Assembly: GCA_019115045.1 (NCBI GenBank)
Contig: DXEI01000080.1
Location: 1-36,787 of the forward strand
Source: Candidatus Gemmiger excrementipullorum
GTDB lineage: Bacteria > Bacillota > Clostridia > Oscillospirales > Ruminococcaceae
DNA: 36,787 nucleotides
Direction of reading: 5' to 3'
Shown here: positions 1-6,781 of the stretch, in pieces
Numbering within the stretch: the stretch's first letter is position 1
Layout of the letters: each line of letters opens with the position of its first letter
Notes under the pieces: generated by a model
What the model was told of the DNA's origin: nothing
The model's database searches: none
Seen by the model: only the letters and a program-made list of their open reading frames with translations
Translations under genes and position numbers: made by a program

Positions 1-158
1 GTGGCGGGGTTGGAGTTGATGAGCACCGTCTCGACGCCCTCGCTTTTGAGCGCGCGGCAGGCCTGCGTGCCGGAGTAGTCGAACTCTGCCGCCTGGCCGA
101 TGATGATGGGGCCGGAACCGATGACCAGCACCTTTTTGATACTGGGATCCTTAGGCAT
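1..158 (-). CDS. carB: carbamoyl-phosphate synthase large subunit, N-terminal fragment (runs off window)
   Basis: Reverse complement translates [53 protein letters not shown], the CarB N-terminus; start overlaps carA stop by 8 nt. Confidence 0.92.
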
Positions 159-1281
159 CGTTGGTCACTCCCTTCGCAGCCAGCATGCGGCTGATGAATT
201 CGTCAAACAGGAACTCGGTGTCCTTGGGGCCGCCGTTGGCCTCGGGGTGGAACTGCACGGTGAAGCAGTTCCACTTGTGGTAGTCGATGCCCTCGCAGGT
301 GCCGTCGTTGGCGTTTGTGTAGCTGACGGCGCCGACGCCGGCGGGCAGGGTATCCCCCACCACCGCGTAGCCGTGGTTCTGGCTGGTGATGAAGGTGCGC
401 CGGCCGCTGACATGGCTGACCGGCTGGTTGGCGCCGCGGTGGCCGTACTTGAGCTTGGTCGTCTGGGCGCCGGCCGCCAGCGCCGTGAGCTGGTGGCCCA
501 GGCAGATGCCGAACGCCGGGATGCCGGTGTCGAGCATCTGGGCGATGTTGCGGATGATCTCGACGTTCTCGGCCGGGTCGCCGGGGCCGTTGGAGAGCAT
601 GAGCCCGTCCGGGGCCAGCGCCGCCAGCTCGGCGGGCGTGGTGCCGCCGGGCAGCACCGTGACGCGGCAGCCGCGCTTTTGCAGGCAGCGCACGATGTTG
701 TTTTTGCAGCCCAGGTCCAGCAGCGCCACATGCAGCGGCGCATCGCCCCAGGCGCCGGGGGCCGTCGGCTCAAACGTCTGCGGCGCGCGGCAGGTCACCG
801 AGGCGACGGCCTCGGTGACGGCGTAGGCCTGGATCTGGGGCAGCAGCGCCGCGGTCTTTTCCGGCTCGGCCGCGGGGTCAAACTCCGTCGTGATGGCGCC
901 GTTCATGACGCCGCTCTCGCGCAGCGTGCGCGTCAGGCTGCGGGTATCGATGCCCTCGATGCCGATGACGCCCTGCTTTTTTAAGAAGGCGTCCAGCGTT
1001 TCCTCGCTGCGGAAGTTGGAGGGCGTCTTGCACGCCTCGCGCACGATGTAGCCGCGCGCCCAGACCTTGCCGCTCTCGACATCCTCGTGGTTCATGCCGT
1101 AGTTGCCGATAAGCGGGTAGGTCTGCGTGATGATCTGCCCGTAGTAGCTGGGGTCGGTCAGCGTTTCCTCAAAGCCGACCATGCCGGTGGCGAACACCAC
1201 CTCGCCGATGGTCGTGCCGGGGCAGCCGATGCTCTGCCCACGGAACACGCGGCCGTTTGCCAATATCAGATATGCCTGCAT
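151..1281 (-). CDS. carA: carbamoyl-phosphate synthase small subunit (glutamine amidotransferase)
   Basis: 376-aa ORF with [15 protein letters not shown] (class I amidotransferase) and [19 protein letters not shown] motifs. Confidence 0.97.
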
Positions 1282-1307: not shown

Positions 1308-1904
1308 TCAAAGGGTCTGTTTGGCGGCTTCCTTCATTTTGCGGCTGCCCAGGTGGACCAGCGGCAGCTTGCCCTCTTTGCACAGGGGGCATTCCTCCGG
1401 CACGTAGTTGGGCAGGTCCAGCTTGAGGGCGCTGGCCACGATGGGGATCGGGGACGGGGCCTCGGCGCGGGTGCGGTCGACGACGCAGGCGATGCCCAGG
1501 CAGACGCCGCCCGCCTCCTCAATGACGCGCTTGGTCTCCAGGCTGGAGACGCCGGTGGTGACGACGTCCTCGGCAATGATGCAGCGCTGGCCCGGCTCGA
1601 TCTTGAAACGCTTGAGGGTCATGACGTTGTCGACGCGCTCGGTAAAAATGGCGCGCTTGCCCAGCTGGCGGCCCAGCTCATACGCATAGACGATGCCGCC
1701 CATGGCCGGGCCGACAACGACGTCGACGTCCAGCGCTTTGAGTTTTTCGGCGACCGGGGCCATGACCTCGGCGCATTTGTCGGGGTACTGCTGCAAAAAG
1801 GCCATCTGGCAGTACGCGCCGGAATGCCGGCCCGACGACAGCAGAAAATGCCCTTCCAAAAAGGCTTCACATTCCTTCAAAACTTCGATCGCTTCTCTTG
1901 CCAT
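1308..1904 (-). CDS. pyrE: orotate phosphoribosyltransferase
   Basis: MAREAIEVLKECEAFLEGHFLLSSGRHSGAYCQ...; PRPP motif CIIAEDVVTTGVSS; AGGAGG upstream of ATG 1904. The longer track ORF (to 2369) is an unsupported N-terminal extension. Confidence 0.95.
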   Translation of the reverse strand: MAREAIEVLKECEAFLEGHFLLSSGRHSGAYCQMAFLQQYPDKCAEVMAPVAEKLKALDVDVVVGPAMGGIVYAYELGRQLGKRAIFTERVDNVMTLKRFKIEPGQRCIIAEDVVTTGVSSLETKRVIEEAGGVCLGIACVVDRTRAEAPSPIPIVASALKLDLPNYVPEECPLCKEGKLPLVHLGSRKMKEAAKQTL

Positions 1905-1934: not shown

Positions 1935-1963
1935 ATCGTAGCATATTTTGTATATTATTACAA
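1935..1963 (-). promoter_or_regulatory. candidate internal promoter upstream of pyrE-carA-carB
   Basis: Minus strand TTGTAA-N17-TACGAT in an AT-rich intergenic island between pyrD and pyrE. Confidence 0.5.
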
Positions 1964-1973
1964 GTTTCTTGTA
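1948..1973. promoter_or_regulatory. operator-like overlapping palindromes TTGTA-N6-TACAA and TACAAG-TTT-CTTGTA
   Basis: Plus strand TTGTATATTATTACAA (1948-1963) overlapping TACAAGTTTCTTGTA (1959-1973); covers the candidate -35. Confidence 0.5.
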
Positions 1974-1984
1974 TATAAATTCGC

Positions 1985-2893
1985 TCAGGCGCGGGCGCAG
2001 CCGCGGATCTCGTCCAGAGTGGCCACGCCGTGGGCGTCCATCCAGGCACCGATCTCCTGCGTGATGCGCACGCAGGCCTGCGGGTCCAGGAAGTTGGCCG
2101 TGCCCACCTGCACCGCCGCCGCGCCGGCCATGATAAATTCCATCGCGTCGCGCCCGGTCAGGATGCCGCCCAGCCCCACGACGGGGATCTGCACGGCCCC
2201 CACGGCCTGCCAGACCATGCGCAGCGCGATGGGCCGCACCGCCGGGCCGGAAAGCCCCGCAAAGGTGTTGTTGAACACCGGGCGGCGCTGTTCGAGGTCG
2301 ATGGCACAGGCCTGGAAGGTGTTGCACAGGCTGATGGCGTCGGCACCGGCAGCCTCGACGGCCTTGCACATCTCGGGGATGCTCTCAGCCTGGGGGCTGA
2401 GCTTGACGACGAGCGGCACTGTGCAGACCTTGCGCACGGCGCTGACGACCTCGCTGGCATCCGCCGCGCGGATACCGAACGCAAGGCCGCCCTGCTTGAC
2501 GTTGGGGCAGCTGATGTTGAGTTCCAAAAAGTCGATGCCGGCCGCGCAGAGCATCTGCACGCCCTCGACGTTTTCCTCGATGGTATGGCCGCCGAGGTTG
2601 GCCCACACCGTGGTGCCGCAGCGGCGCATGGCGGGCAGTTCATTGTCGATAAAATGCTGCACGCCGGGGTTTTGCAGGCCGATGGAGTTCATCAGGCCGG
2701 CGGGGGTCTCATACAGGCGCTCGCCCTCGTTGCCGGGCTGGCCATGCAGCGTCAGCCCCTTGCCGGAGATGCCGCCCAGCAGGCGCAGGTCCTCGATCTC
2801 GGCATACTCCGGCCCAAAGCCGAAGGTGCCGGAGGCCGCGATGACCGGGCCGGCCAGCCGCTTGCCGAGAAGATCTACATGCAGGTCCGCCAT
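1985..2893 (-). CDS. pyrD: dihydroorotate dehydrogenase (class 1B catalytic subunit)
   Basis: MADLHVDLLGKRLAGPVIAASGTFGFG...NISCPNVKQGG...GGILTGRDAMEFIMAGAAAVQVGTA; adjacent to pyrK. Confidence 0.95.
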   Translation of the reverse strand: MADLHVDLLGKRLAGPVIAASGTFGFGPEYAEIEDLRLLGGISGKGLTLHGQPGNEGERLYETPAGLMNSIGLQNPGVQHFIDNELPAMRRCGTTVWANLGGHTIEENVEGVQMLCAAGIDFLELNISCPNVKQGGLAFGIRAADASEVVSAVRKVCTVPLVVKLSPQAESIPEMCKAVEAAGADAISLCNTFQACAIDLEQRRPVFNNTFAGLSGPAVRPIALRMVWQAVGAVQIPVVGLGGILTGRDAMEFIMAGAAAVQVGTANFLDPQACVRITQEIGAWMDAHGVATLDEIRGCARA

Positions 2894-3663
2894 CAGTCAA
2901 ACACCTCCTCGGCTGCAAACACGGGGCCGTCCTTGCAGACGGTCTTGGGGCCCACCTTGGTGTGGCAGGTGCAGCCCAGGCAGGCGCCCAGGCCGCAGGC
3001 CATCTTCTTTTCCAGGCTGGCCAGGCAGGGTTTGCCGGCCGCTGCGCAGAGCTTGGCCACGCCGCGCATCATGACCATGGGGCCGCAGGTCAGCACGATG
3101 TCATAGCGGGCGGCGTCCAGCAGGTCGGTGACGAGGCCATGGTGGCCCTGCGCGCCGGAATCGGTCGCCAGGTGAATGGTGTGGCACCAGGGCACAAAAG
3201 CTTCCAGCCCATAGGGCTCGTCGCGAAATCCCGCGTAGAGGTCCGCCCGCACGCCGGCGCGGCAGAGCTGTTTGCACAGCAGCAGCAGCGGCGCAGTGCC
3301 GATGCCGCCGCCCACGACGGCGATGCGCTTGTACCGCTGCGCCAGCGCGGCGGCGTCAAAGCCGTTGCCGCACGGGCCGGTGACGGTCAGCACATCGCCG
3401 GGGCGCAGCGCCGCCAGCTTGTGCGTGCCTTCGCCTTTGAGCTGGTACAAAAAGGTCAGCGCGCCGGTCTGGCCGTCAAAATCATGGACGCTGATGGGGC
3501 GCGAGAGCACCGGCGTCGCTTCCGGCGCCCAGGCGCGCAGCATATAGAACTGCCCGGCGTGGGGTTCGTGGCGGGGGTCCTGCCACTGCACGACGAGGCG
3601 GCGGATGTCGGGCGCGGGCGCGTCCTGCGCCAGCACCTGTAACTTACAGCTTATCGCATTCAC
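2893..3663 (-). CDS. pyrK: dihydroorotate dehydrogenase electron transfer subunit
   Basis: Ferredoxin-reductase-like ORF with GGGIGTAPLLLLCKQL and C-terminal Cys cluster CGLGACLGCTCHTKVG...VCKDGPVF. GTG start at 3663 is my choice (MNAISCKLQVLAQ); overlaps the pyrF 3' end. Confidence 0.9.
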   Translation of the reverse strand: MNAISCKLQVLAQDAPAPDIRRLVVQWQDPRHEPHAGQFYMLRAWAPEATPVLSRPISVHDFDGQTGALTFLYQLKGEGTHKLAALRPGDVLTVTGPCGNGFDAAALAQRYKRIAVVGGGIGTAPLLLLCKQLCRAGVRADLYAGFRDEPYGLEAFVPWCHTIHLATDSGAQGHHGLVTDLLDAARYDIVLTCGPMVMMRGVAKLCAAAGKPCLASLEKKMACGLGACLGCTCHTKVGPKTVCKDGPVFAAEEVFD

Positions 3664-4513
3664 CCTGGATATCCTCCCGCATGCGCACGCATTCGTTGTA
3701 GGCGGCCTCGTCAAAGGCGACGCCGGGCTGTTTTTTCCACGCCAGCAAAATGCCGCGGCTGGAGTTGACGACGCCGCCGTTGCCCTTGGTCAGGTACTGG
3801 GCGATGTCGGCCGCTTTGCCGCCCTGCGCGCCGTACCCCGGGATGAGGAAGAAGGTGTTTTTGTAGGCGGCGCGGATGGCGGTGGCTTCCTCGGTATGGG
3901 TGCCGCCGATGACCAGCCCGATGCTGGAGTAACCGTGTTCGCCCCTATAGTCCTTGCCCAGGGCCGTCAGGCTGTCGCCCACCAGGTCGTAGACGTGGCG
4001 GCCGTCGGCCAGAGTCTGGTACTCAAAGTCCTTCGCGCCGGGGTTGGAGGTACGGCACAGCACGAACACGCCCTTGCCCCGCTCTTTGCAGTACGGCAGG
4101 TAGGGGCTGATGGAATCCAGCCCCATGTAGGGCGCCAGCGTGATGAGGTCGGCCTCAAAATCGCCGGTGAAGTGTGCCTTGGCGTACATCTCGGCCGTTT
4201 TGGCGATGTCGCCGCGCTTGATGTCGGCAATGACCGGCAGGCCGGTGGCGCGCGCCAGGCGCAGCGTCTCGGCATAGGCGCGCAGGCCGTCGAGGCCCAG
4301 CGACTCATAGTAGGCGATCTGCACTTTGTAGCAGCCCGCCACGCCCTTGGTGGCGTCGATCAGCGCGCGGTTGAAGGCGACGACGTTCTCCCCCGCCGTC
4401 TTGGCGGCGTCGGTCGCGGGCAGGTAGCTCAGTTCGGTGTCCAGGCCCACGCACACAGGGCCGTTGGCGGCCACGCTCTCGTACAGTTTGTCCATGTTGG
4501 TCAGCATGTTCAT
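3644..4513 (-). CDS. pyrF: orotidine 5'-phosphate decarboxylase (type 2)
   Basis: CVGLDTELSYLP...VIADIKRGDIAKTAEMYAKAHF...FLIPGYGAQGG...NSSRGILLAW. Confidence 0.95.
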   Translation of the reverse strand: MNMLTNMDKLYESVAANGPVCVGLDTELSYLPATDAAKTAGENVVAFNRALIDATKGVAGCYKVQIAYYESLGLDGLRAYAETLRLARATGLPVIADIKRGDIAKTAEMYAKAHFTGDFEADLITLAPYMGLDSISPYLPYCKERGKGVFVLCRTSNPGAKDFEYQTLADGRHVYDLVGDSLTALGKDYRGEHGYSSIGLVIGGTHTEEATAIRAAYKNTFFLIPGYGAQGGKAADIAQYLTKGNGGVVNSSRGILLAWKKQPGVAFDEAAYNECVRMREDIQGECDKL

Positions 4514-4528: not shown

Positions 4529-5719
4529 TTATTCTTCGATCTGAAAGGTCACGGTACCGCCCTTGATGGTGGTGACGACTTTGCCGTACAAATACGCGCC
4601 GTCGTACGGGCAGTTTTTGCTTTTGCTGTGCAGTTCGGCGGCGTCCACCTGGTACAGATGGTCAAGGTCGACCAGCACCACGTCGGCGTCGTAGCCCGGG
4701 GCCAGCAGGCCCTTGCGGCCGGCCAGGCCCAGCACGGCGGCGGGGCCGGCGCTCATCAAAAAGCTCAGCAGTTCCAGCGGCAGGCGCTGCTCGCGGCAGA
4801 GCTTGGTGTAGCAGACGCCGAACGCCGTCTCCAGCCCCACCATGCCGGCGGCGCCTTTCTCTTTATCCTCGGCCGTGTGGGGCGCGTGGTCGGTGCCGAT
4901 GCAGGTCACGGTGCCGTCCTGGATGGCCTCGATGAGCGCCGTGACGTCCTCCGCCTTGCGGATGGGCGGGTTGACTTTGTATTGCAGGCGGCTGTCGTCG
5001 AACCAGAGGTGGTGCGGCGTGACCTCGCAGCTGACGCGCGCGCCGCGCAGGCGGCTGCGGCGCACCGTGTCGACGGCTTCTTTAGTGGAGACGTGGCACA
5101 TGTGCAGCCGGGTGCCGTAGTATTCGGCCAGGTGGCAGTTGCGCACCGTCTCGATGTTTTCGGCCAGGCGGTAGTCCCAGGGGCTGATCTCGCGGTCTTC
5201 GGCATGGGACATCACGGTCAGGCCGCGCTCCGTCGCGATGGCGAACACCCGCGCCATGACGGCGTTGTTCATGACGCCGTTGCCGTCCTCGGTGATGAAC
5301 TTGACGTCGTCAGGCAGCGTGAGCAGGTGGTCGATGGTCTTGCCGTCGAAGTCTTGGGTGATGGACACCGTCTGGTTGGCGTCGCACAGGCCGATGCGTT
5401 TGGCTTCGTCCTGCACGGCGTGCGCGATCTCGGCCGAGGAGCAGACCGGTTTGGTGTTGGGCATCAGGTTGACGAAGGTGTACCCGCCCGCGGCCGCCGC
5501 GGCGGAGCCGGTGGCGACATCCTCTTTATACTCAAAGCCGGGCGTGCGCCAGTGGCAGTGGGTGTCGATAAACGCGGGCAGCACCGTGCGGCCTTTGGCG
5601 TCGAGCACTTCCTCCCCTTGTGGCGTCAGCAGCCCCGTGCCGACGGCGGCGATCTTGCCGCCGCGCAGCCAGAGTTCGATGGGGTTGCCGGCGCAGTCTT
5701 TCGCGTTGCGGATCAGCAT
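4529..5719 (-). CDS. pyrC: dihydroorotase
   Basis: MLIRNAKDCAGNPIELWLRGGKIAAVG...FIDTHCHWRTPGFEYKED...TDHAPHTAEDKEKG...; AGGAGG upstream of ATG 5719. Confidence 0.95.
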   Translation of the reverse strand: MLIRNAKDCAGNPIELWLRGGKIAAVGTGLLTPQGEEVLDAKGRTVLPAFIDTHCHWRTPGFEYKEDVATGSAAAAAGGYTFVNLMPNTKPVCSSAEIAHAVQDEAKRIGLCDANQTVSITQDFDGKTIDHLLTLPDDVKFITEDGNGVMNNAVMARVFAIATERGLTVMSHAEDREISPWDYRLAENIETVRNCHLAEYYGTRLHMCHVSTKEAVDTVRRSRLRGARVSCEVTPHHLWFDDSRLQYKVNPPIRKAEDVTALIEAIQDGTVTCIGTDHAPHTAEDKEKGAAGMVGLETAFGVCYTKLCREQRLPLELLSFLMSAGPAAVLGLAGRKGLLAPGYDADVVLVDLDHLYQVDAAELHSKSKNCPYDGAYLYGKVVTTIKGGTVTFQIEE

Positions 5720-5771: not shown

Positions 5772-5802
5772 AAAAAAAAACTTTTCCCAAAAAGGGAAAA
5801 GT
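5772..5802 (-). terminator. intrinsic terminator/attenuator in the pyr operon leader
   Basis: Minus strand ACTTTTCCC-TTTTT-GGGAAAAGT (9-bp stem, 5-nt loop) followed by a T run, upstream of pyrC. Confidence 0.85.
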
Positions 5803-5879
5803 CAAAAAACGGTACCCTGTGCAGTGCCAGGAAAGAACACCCCACCGTACATTTTAAAGCTGGTCCCACAGCCCGGCAT
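5802..5879 (-). CDS. putative 25-aa pyr operon leader peptide MPGCGTSFKMYGGVFFPGTAQGTVF
   Basis: AAGGGGAGG about 8 nt before ATG (5877-5879); open to TGA (5802-5804), which touches the first base of a terminator stem; lies between a strong promoter and pyrC. Confidence 0.5.
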   Translation of the reverse strand: MPGCGTSFKMYGGVFFPGTAQGTVF

Positions 5880-5912
5880 GGCGGCGCCCCTCCCCTTACA
5901 CAGATTTTACTT

Positions 5913-5941
5913 ATTGTACCATGCCGCGCGGCGGGTGTCAA
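5913..5941 (-). promoter_or_regulatory. sigma-A promoter of the pyr operon
   Basis: Minus strand TTGACA-N17-TACAAT (-35 at 5936-5941, -10 at 5913-5918). Confidence 0.85.
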
Positions 5942-6121: not shown

Positions 6122-6781
6122 ATGGGCCTTTGGGAAGATGCAAAAAATATCCGGGACAAAGACCCGGCGGCGCGCAACGTGGCCGAGGTCATTTTGCTGT
6201 ACCCCGGTTTCCACGCGCTGTTCACCCACCGCATCGCGCACTTTTTGTACAACCGAAAGCTGTTCTTTCTGGCGCGGCTCGTCAGCCAGCTTTCGCGCCA
6301 TCTGACCGGCATCGAGATCCACCCCGGCGCCAAGATCGGCCGCAAGCTGTTCATTGACCACGGCATGGGCATCGTGTTTGGCGAGACGACCGAGATCGGC
6401 GACAACTGTACGATCTACCACGGCGTGACGCTGGGCGGCACCGGCAAAGATACCGGCAAGCGCCACCCCACGCTGGGCGACAACGTACTGATCGGCGCGG
6501 GGGCCAAGGTGCTGGGGCCGGTGTACATTGGCGACAATGTGCGCGTGGGCGCCGGCAGCGTGGTGCTGAAAAACCTGCCCGCCAACGCCACTGCCGTGGG
6601 CGTGCCGGCCGAGGTCGTGCGCGTGGGCAATATCAAGTGCTGCCCGGCCGACGACCTGGACCAGCAGGCGCTGCCCGATATCGTCAGCATCCGCATTTCG
6701 GAGCTGGAAGCCCGCCTGAGCCGCATGGAGGCCAAGGCCCAGGGCGAGTACCCGCCCGACAAGCCGCAGCCCCCGCAATAG
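6122..6781 (+). CDS. cysE: serine O-acetyltransferase
   Basis: Left-handed beta-helix hexapeptide protein: IEIHPGAKIGRKLFIDHGMGIVFGETTEIGDNCTIYHGVTLGGTGKDTGKRHPTLGDNV. Confidence 0.93.
   Translation: MGLWEDAKNIRDKDPAARNVAEVILLYPGFHALFTHRIAHFLYNRKLFFLARLVSQLSRHLTGIEIHPGAKIGRKLFIDHGMGIVFGETTEIGDNCTIYHGVTLGGTGKDTGKRHPTLGDNVLIGAGAKVLGPVYIGDNVRVGAGSVVLKNLPANATAVGVPAEVVRVGNIKCCPADDLDQQALPDIVSIRISELEARLSRMEAKAQGEYPPDKPQPPQ

Follow-up and report, generated by a model that had tools for sequence, protein, structure and literature searches.

A short reading frame ending on a terminator stem marks a probable translation-dependent attenuator of the pyr operon in Gemmiger and related genera

In Gemmiger and its relatives, the pyrimidine operon is preceded by a short open reading frame (ORF) which, in nearly all of the leaders compared, ends at the first bases of an intrinsic terminator, and sequence comparison makes it likely that this leader is a translation-dependent transcription attenuator of the pyr operon, probably one that reads UTP through the speed of RNA polymerase (RNAP). 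Translation-coupled attenuation of pyrimidine genes is a textbook enterobacterial mechanism, and the Bacillota are expected to use PyrR for the control of their pyr genes. The leader described here lies in a window of 36,787 nt, that is, the whole stretch of DNA analysed, from Candidatus Gemmiger excrementipullorum (contig DXEI01000080.1).

Architecture of the leader and its operon

The first-pass annotation of this DNA had proposed a promoter, a Shine-Dalgarno (SD) sequence, a 25-codon ORF and a terminator whose stem begins at the TGA, and every one of these elements is present in its place on the minus strand (Table 1). The promoter, TTGACA-N17-TACAAT (5941-5913, minus strand), matches the consensus at 11 of 12 positions, and a scan of 2 kb gave no other sigma-70-like site, with 0.3 expected by chance. 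The base A5802 is used twice, as the A of the leader stop codon and as the first base of the terminator. Divergent from the leader lies a gene for serine O-acetyltransferase (cysE/epsC, 6122-6778, plus strand).

Table 1. Features of the pyr leader and operon in the window
Feature	Positions	Strand	Remarks
Promoter -35 hexamer TTGACA	5936..5941	-	region conserved within genus
Promoter -10 hexamer TACAAT	5913..5918	-	17-nt spacer; TG precedes hexamer
SD AAGGGGAGG of leader ORF	5889..5897	-	anti-SD duplex -11.1 kcal/mol
Leader ORF, 25 codons MPGCGTSFKMYGGVFFPGTAQGTVF + TGA	5802..5879	-	ATG 5879; TGA 5804-5802
RBS-sequestering long-range helix (predicted), 5' arm	5874..5904	-	holds SD and spacer up to start codon; MFE pairing, cognate-vs-swapped test
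RBS-sequestering helix (predicted), 3' arm GGUGGGGUGUUCUUUCCU...CACAGG	5816..5847	-	within leader ORF; MFE pairing; counterpart arms in other genera
U-rich stretch UUUUUUGACUUUUCCCUUUUU	5789..5809	-	last codons, stop, terminator 5' arm, loop; putative UTP-sensitive slow zone for RNAP
Intrinsic terminator ACTTTTCCC-TTTTT-GGGAAAAGT + T9	5772..5803	-	ACTTTTCCC 5802-5794; loop TTTTT; GGGAAAAGT 5788-5780; T9 5780-5772; motif scan of 85k genomes
pyrC, dihydroorotase	4529..5719	-	first gene after attenuator; TIGR00857, 309 bits vs cut-off 279
pyrF, orotidine-5'-phosphate decarboxylase	3644..4513	-	TIGR02127
pyrK, dihydroorotate dehydrogenase electron transfer subunit	2893..3663	-	NF000798
pyrD, dihydroorotate dehydrogenase	1985..2893	-	NF005574
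pyrE, orotate phosphoribosyltransferase	1308..1904	-	TIGR01367
carA, carbamoyl phosphate synthase small subunit	151..1281	-	NF009475
carB start, large subunit	1..158	-	cut by window edge; identified by translated start and place after carA

The genes behind the leader are arranged in the order pyrC-F-K-D-E-carA-carB, with the ATG of pyrC at 5719, so that the earlier description of a whole pyr operon stands for pyrC-F-K-D-E-carAB and does not extend to pyrB and pyrI, which the same genome carries on another contig (G000:C37:4031-4933), after a GntR-like gene and separated from it by a short gap. On that contig, no such leader was found upstream of pyrB, and aspartate transcarbamoylase, its pyrB standing directly after a GntR/UTRA-like regulator gene, may be regulated separately.

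Given that there is no promoter-like site between the terminator and pyrC in the window, the operon can be reached by read-through alone, and given also how close the terminator stands to pyrC (mostly 16-78 nt from its start across leaders), the hairpin attenuates the operon by its geometry. An intrinsic terminator between the sole promoter and the pyrimidine genes is a feature of attenuators of the pyrBI/pyrE type.

Further into the operon, in the AT-rich gap between pyrD and pyrE (1935-1973, minus strand), TTGTAA(1963-1958)-N17-TACGAT(1940-1935) is a candidate internal promoter. The palindrome TACAAG-AAA-CTTGTA (1973-1959), which overlaps it, may be an operator, so that pyrE-carAB may be under a second control.

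Conservation of the leader across genera

The leader DNA was matched in 33 of 35 genomes of the same genus. When 85k species genomes were scanned for the bare terminator motif, with a pattern that specified neither ORF nor stop codon, the exact motif was found in 60 stretches only, nearly all of them from Gemmiger, Faecalibacterium, Fournierella, Anaerofilum, Ruthenibacterium or unclassified relatives, with one clear outlier, a Bacteroidales contig (L088). Where the following gene could be read, it was essentially always pyrC, or pyrB and then pyrC, whichever heads the operon.

Together with the neighbours of family-wide PyrC, these matches provided 71 distinct pyr leaders, in each of which the ORF was taken from the start codon with the strongest SD. 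Of the 71 leaders, 67 have the stop codon of this ORF at offset 0 or +1 from the stem, and after clustering at 65% identity the register was held in 15 of 19 clusters (P about 7e-16), the null being shuffles that preserve the start and the stop-stem junction, with a chance of about 0.10 per cluster. The layout is therefore not a chance arrangement of the window, and the comparison of leaders that the first-pass annotation had proposed found the ORF, the ribosome-binding site (RBS) and the abutting terminator conserved jointly across genera, and the peptide not; the contrary pattern, a conserved hairpin with an ORF or RBS that is not conserved, did not occur. A reading frame equipped with an RBS and reaching the terminator is likewise a feature of the pyrBI/pyrE type.

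The ORFs in register have 16-38 codons and use both TGA and TAA as stop codons, and the peptides of different genera are mostly unrelated, the residues encoded by the U tracts alone being held in common. In six groups of relatives, pN/pS was 0.60 in frame versus 1.02 and 1.00 out of frame, with frame 0 the lowest in all six, and this constraint, being specific to the frame, indicates that translation of the leader is selected and the peptide only weakly. It is thus the architecture of the leader, and not the peptide sequence, that the clade has conserved; these ORFs resemble small proteins to annotation pipelines, which they probably are not.

Of the four divergent leaders, L056 has its stop 8 nt short of the stem, L055 and L058 have theirs within the hairpin, and in L066 it lies past the hairpin. 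L055, L058 and L066 resemble E. coli pyrL, in which the ORF also runs into or through the terminator, and their geometry suggests that the position of the stop has drifted or been reset.

Outside the clade, 20 genomes with a distant PyrC and no PyrR were scanned for the layout, and one weak candidate only was obtained, from a more distant genus (L150), where an ORF of 45 codons with a TTG start finishes precisely at a G+C-rich terminator, some 1.07 kb before pyrC; it may be regarded as a weak candidate for an independent case.

Two other observations concern the surroundings of the leader. In G. formicilis ATCC 27749 (L013, same as L118), a MITE-like inverted repeat of about 130 nt (GTAGGGGCGAAC...) lies between the terminator and pyrC. 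In Anaerofilum-like genomes (L051, L054, L060, L070, L078, L095 and L105), the first gene of the operon encodes, as a single polypeptide, a PyrB with a PyrI-like zinc domain (CxYC) at its C terminus, and this gene is preceded by the leader.

Predicted pairing of the ribosome-binding site with its own reading frame

In the MFE fold of the window leader, the SD, the spacer and the start codon pair with the middle of the ORF, and opening 5897-5877 was computed to cost about 18 kcal/mol. Other genera show this geometry too, with different sequences: for example, GAAAGGAGAACAAAC pairs with GUUUGUUCUUCUUUC in L054, GAAAGGAGAACAAUG with CAUUGGUUCUUCUUUC in its relative L105, where two pairs are compensated, and ACAGCAGAGGAGGCGUUU with AAACGCGCCUUUGCUGU in L060.

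Alignments of the SD regions made with MAFFT shift with the length of the spacer, for which reason a test of cognate versus swapped duplexes was used, on 35 leaders of less than 70% identity. The cognate duplexes between SD region and ORF had a mean of -22.5 kcal/mol, versus -18.4 for the swapped ones (z -7.4; 0 of 20000 permutations), and the flank after the SD was still significant when taken alone (34 of 20000). The controls gave z values of 0.4 for the pyrC/B start with its own body, -0.2 for the pyrC/B start with the leader body and -0.3 for the leader start with the pyrC body, and E. coli pyrL showed no helix signal (z +0.8). In most leaders, then, the pairing between SD and mid-ORF co-varies between genera. 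It is not universal, L014, L042, L045 and L056 being without extra closure, and within the Faecalibacterium group (A4), the most conserved one, whose sequences are too alike, RNAalifold found no double changes in 44 pairs.

The SD has a predicted openness of 0.51 while the RNA is nascent (to +24) and of 0.17 once the leader is complete, the value for codon-shuffled ORFs being 0.28. These folding predictions suggest that the helix acts as a kinetic gate, open to a ribosome until the downstream arm has been transcribed, and that translation of the leader is itself probably gated by the sequestered RBS, a point absent from the first-pass annotation. An RBS folded shut by its own ORF would be the new element of this system.

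The helix could alternatively be a transcription pause hairpin and no lock on the RBS, stalling RNAP in the U run before the stop and taking in the SD only through the shortness of the leader. In the window, the 3' end of the helix (5816) and the end of the U run (5804) lie about 12 nt apart, a spacing similar to that of pauses at hairpins. On the other hand, the loops are long (about 20-50 nt), the distances to the U run vary, and in the strong cases the complementarity takes in the SD and the spacer, which leaves this explanation unlikely.

U-rich RNA and the distance between stop codon and terminator

The end of the ORF is rich in U, as is the 5' arm of the hairpin, so that what had been noticed in one sequence is borne out across leaders. 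In 32 leaders, the final 12 nt of the ORF have a T fraction of 0.53, compared with 0.33 for codon-shuffled ORFs (paired t 8.9), and 18 of these leaders have a T4 run among the final 15 nt, where 7.0 would be expected. The T fraction of the terminator 5' arm is 0.42; for 27 other terminators on the same contigs, the stems of which are mostly G+C-rich, it is 0.16. Unlike these ordinary terminators, that of the pyr leader is conserved in sequence and is U-rich. As far as composition goes, U-rich RNA at or before the terminator is a further feature of the pyrBI/pyrE type, and in E. coli pyrL, which has a similar composition, RNAP pauses at low UTP (PMC10135430). Base composition and the content of the operon together point to UTP as the probable signal.

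Terminators placed close behind stop codons are a pattern associated with runaway transcription. The ordinary gene-end terminators of the window and of L067-L126 stand at a median of 9 nt after the stop, with 10 of 17 within 12 nt, and, given that ordinary gene ends here show it too, adjacency alone is weak evidence of coupling. Such adjacency is what would be expected, since the Bacillota are classed as "runaway" species, in which RNAP outpaces the ribosomes (PMC13323073), and it follows that coupling is not to be assumed here and must come from the slowing of RNAP. What counts as evidence is the exact 0/+1 register in the leader together with the obligatory read-through. In E. coli, the proximity of the ribosome almost fully represses a terminator that follows a stop codon by a few nt, and once the distance exceeds about 30 nt the terminator is fully active (PMC4824070).

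These same gene ends bring in the explanation that the terminator is constitutive and partial, i.e., that the ORF is a useful peptide gene, the terminator its ordinary 3' end, and read-through supplies pyrC at a fixed level. In favour of this account, terminators next to stop codons are normal here and the peptide is under weak purifying selection, but neither the sequence, the length (16-38 codons) nor the composition of the peptide is conserved between genera, the terminator is conserved and U-rich where ordinary ones are G+C-rich, and the leader unit stays with the first gene of the operon, be it pyrC or pyrB; such an arrangement is thus considered improbable.

Searches for PyrR, ligand-binding and antiterminator elements

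A further claim of the first-pass annotation, that there is no PyrR-like loop, agrees with the absence of the PyrR RNA (RF00515) from the window and from all 35 genus genomes, in a search that detected the B. subtilis control. No PyrR protein exceeded the cut-off in those 35 genomes, and a PyrR-dependent pyr attenuator was rejected, given that neither the RNA nor the pyrR gene is present. Across the family, PyrR was over the cut-off in 86 of 198 genomes, namely in none of the 31 with a leader-type PyrC and in 86 of the 167 others, an association whose formal value of 2.6e-9 concerns one clade and about one evolutionary event. The leader shares with the PyrR-dependent attenuators of Bacillus (RF00515) the attenuation of transcription in a pyr operon of the Bacillota and differs from them in lacking both the PyrR RNA and the protein.

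No Rfam family matched the leader, permissive thresholds included, and the only nucleotides conserved across genera are those of the SD, the start codon and the terminator; a riboswitch with a conserved aptamer does not agree with these observations. More generally, a small molecule or an RNA-binding protein might act on the leader RNA, in the manner of a riboswitch or of PyrR, with the ORF incidental or serving to tune the response, and both the long stable helix that encloses the SD and the U-rich and C-rich single-stranded tracts, as possible binding sites, would suit such a ligand. This is nevertheless a poor prospect, since the failure to match Rfam, the lack of other nucleotides conserved across genera and the absence of PyrR RNA and protein all speak against it, and the register of the ORF and its frame-specific constraint would be left unexplained.

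As for amino-acid leader-peptide attenuators (trp and his; for his in bacilli, PMC2965389), in which a leader peptide also controls a terminator, the ribosome would have to stall here at scarce codons, such as those of Phe. Phe is the commonest residue (119 of about 840 in 32 representative peptides), occurring in scattered U-rich tracts, and a leader ORF and a terminator are both present. The Phe residues, however, track the U tracts, and the product of the operon is pyrimidines. No upstream partner of the terminator 5' arm recurs, the predicted partner differing among clusters, which argues against an attenuator of the trp/his type, and while the terminators of amino-acid attenuators lie more than 20 bp past the leader gene (PMC4824070), the gap here is 0. 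Control by a scarce amino acid is accordingly very improbable.

Reiterative initiation as in pyrG, for which a GGGC start would be expected, was set aside, the start region being AAAAUCUG.

Comparison with known attenuators

The closest likeness is to pyrBI (pyrL) of E. coli and Salmonella, which has a short leader ORF, U-rich RNA prone to pausing, a pyrimidine operon, no regulatory protein and an intrinsic terminator that a ribosome can keep from forming (PMC10135430, PMC5021804). Both pyrL and the window ORF carry FFP encoded by a U tract, as checked in the sequences. On the other hand, pyrL spans its terminator, which is G+C-rich and not U-rich, ends just before pyrB and lacks the helix between SD and mid-ORF, and the target here is pyrC-F-K-D-E-carAB in the Bacillota. 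In E. coli rph-pyrE, a reading frame likewise stops a short way before the terminator, and the distance of its stop codon governs a UTP-modulated read-through (PMC2784333, citing Bonekamp 1984); there, the frame is that of a full enzyme gene, rph, and here it is a leader of 16-38 codons with its own, probably gated RBS. The action of the ribosome at the stop codon would be the pyrE/pyrBI principle and the loading window a new component. The leader probably works like pyrBI/pyrE, from which it is set apart by the geometry of its ORF, its gated RBS, the U-rich terminator, the operon that it controls and the phylum. No earlier description of such a leader was found in the literature searched, which lacked two standard reviews of pyr attenuation, and a prior report is possible.

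Proposed mechanism and its significance

From these features we infer a response to UTP, translation of the leader and antitermination by a ribosome at the UGA. With ample UTP, RNAP would cross the U-rich end of the ORF and the hairpin quickly, with no ribosome near, and the hairpin would form and terminate transcription. When UTP is low, RNAP would slow in the U tracts; a ribosome would then reach the stop codon and cover the hairpin's 5' arm, letting RNAP into pyrC.

A second control is likely to act in most leaders, where the pairing of the SD region with mid-ORF RNA would permit entry mainly before that arm is made, restricting translation to ribosomes that load early, within a window that would depend on the speed of RNAP. 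A fast polymerase (high UTP) would close the RBS and meet the U-rich hairpin unaccompanied, resulting in termination, and a slow one (low UTP) would let the ribosome load before the mid-ORF arm exists and arrive at the stop in time for read-through; the loading window could alternatively serve mainly to admit one ribosome per transcript. We put forward only tentatively, as a possibility somewhat short of even, the full two-step kinetic attenuator, which would measure RNAP speed via a ribosome-loading window, with the RBS sealed by downstream pyrimidine-rich coding RNA, and would replace PyrR in the Gemmiger/Faecalibacterium lineage.

If true, this two-step device would let members of a "runaway-transcription" phylum control transcription by translation, and the replacement of PyrR by an attenuator with its ORF on the terminator, in abundant gut commensals, would provide a natural and quantitative test of when ribosomes catch RNAP in Gram-positive bacteria.
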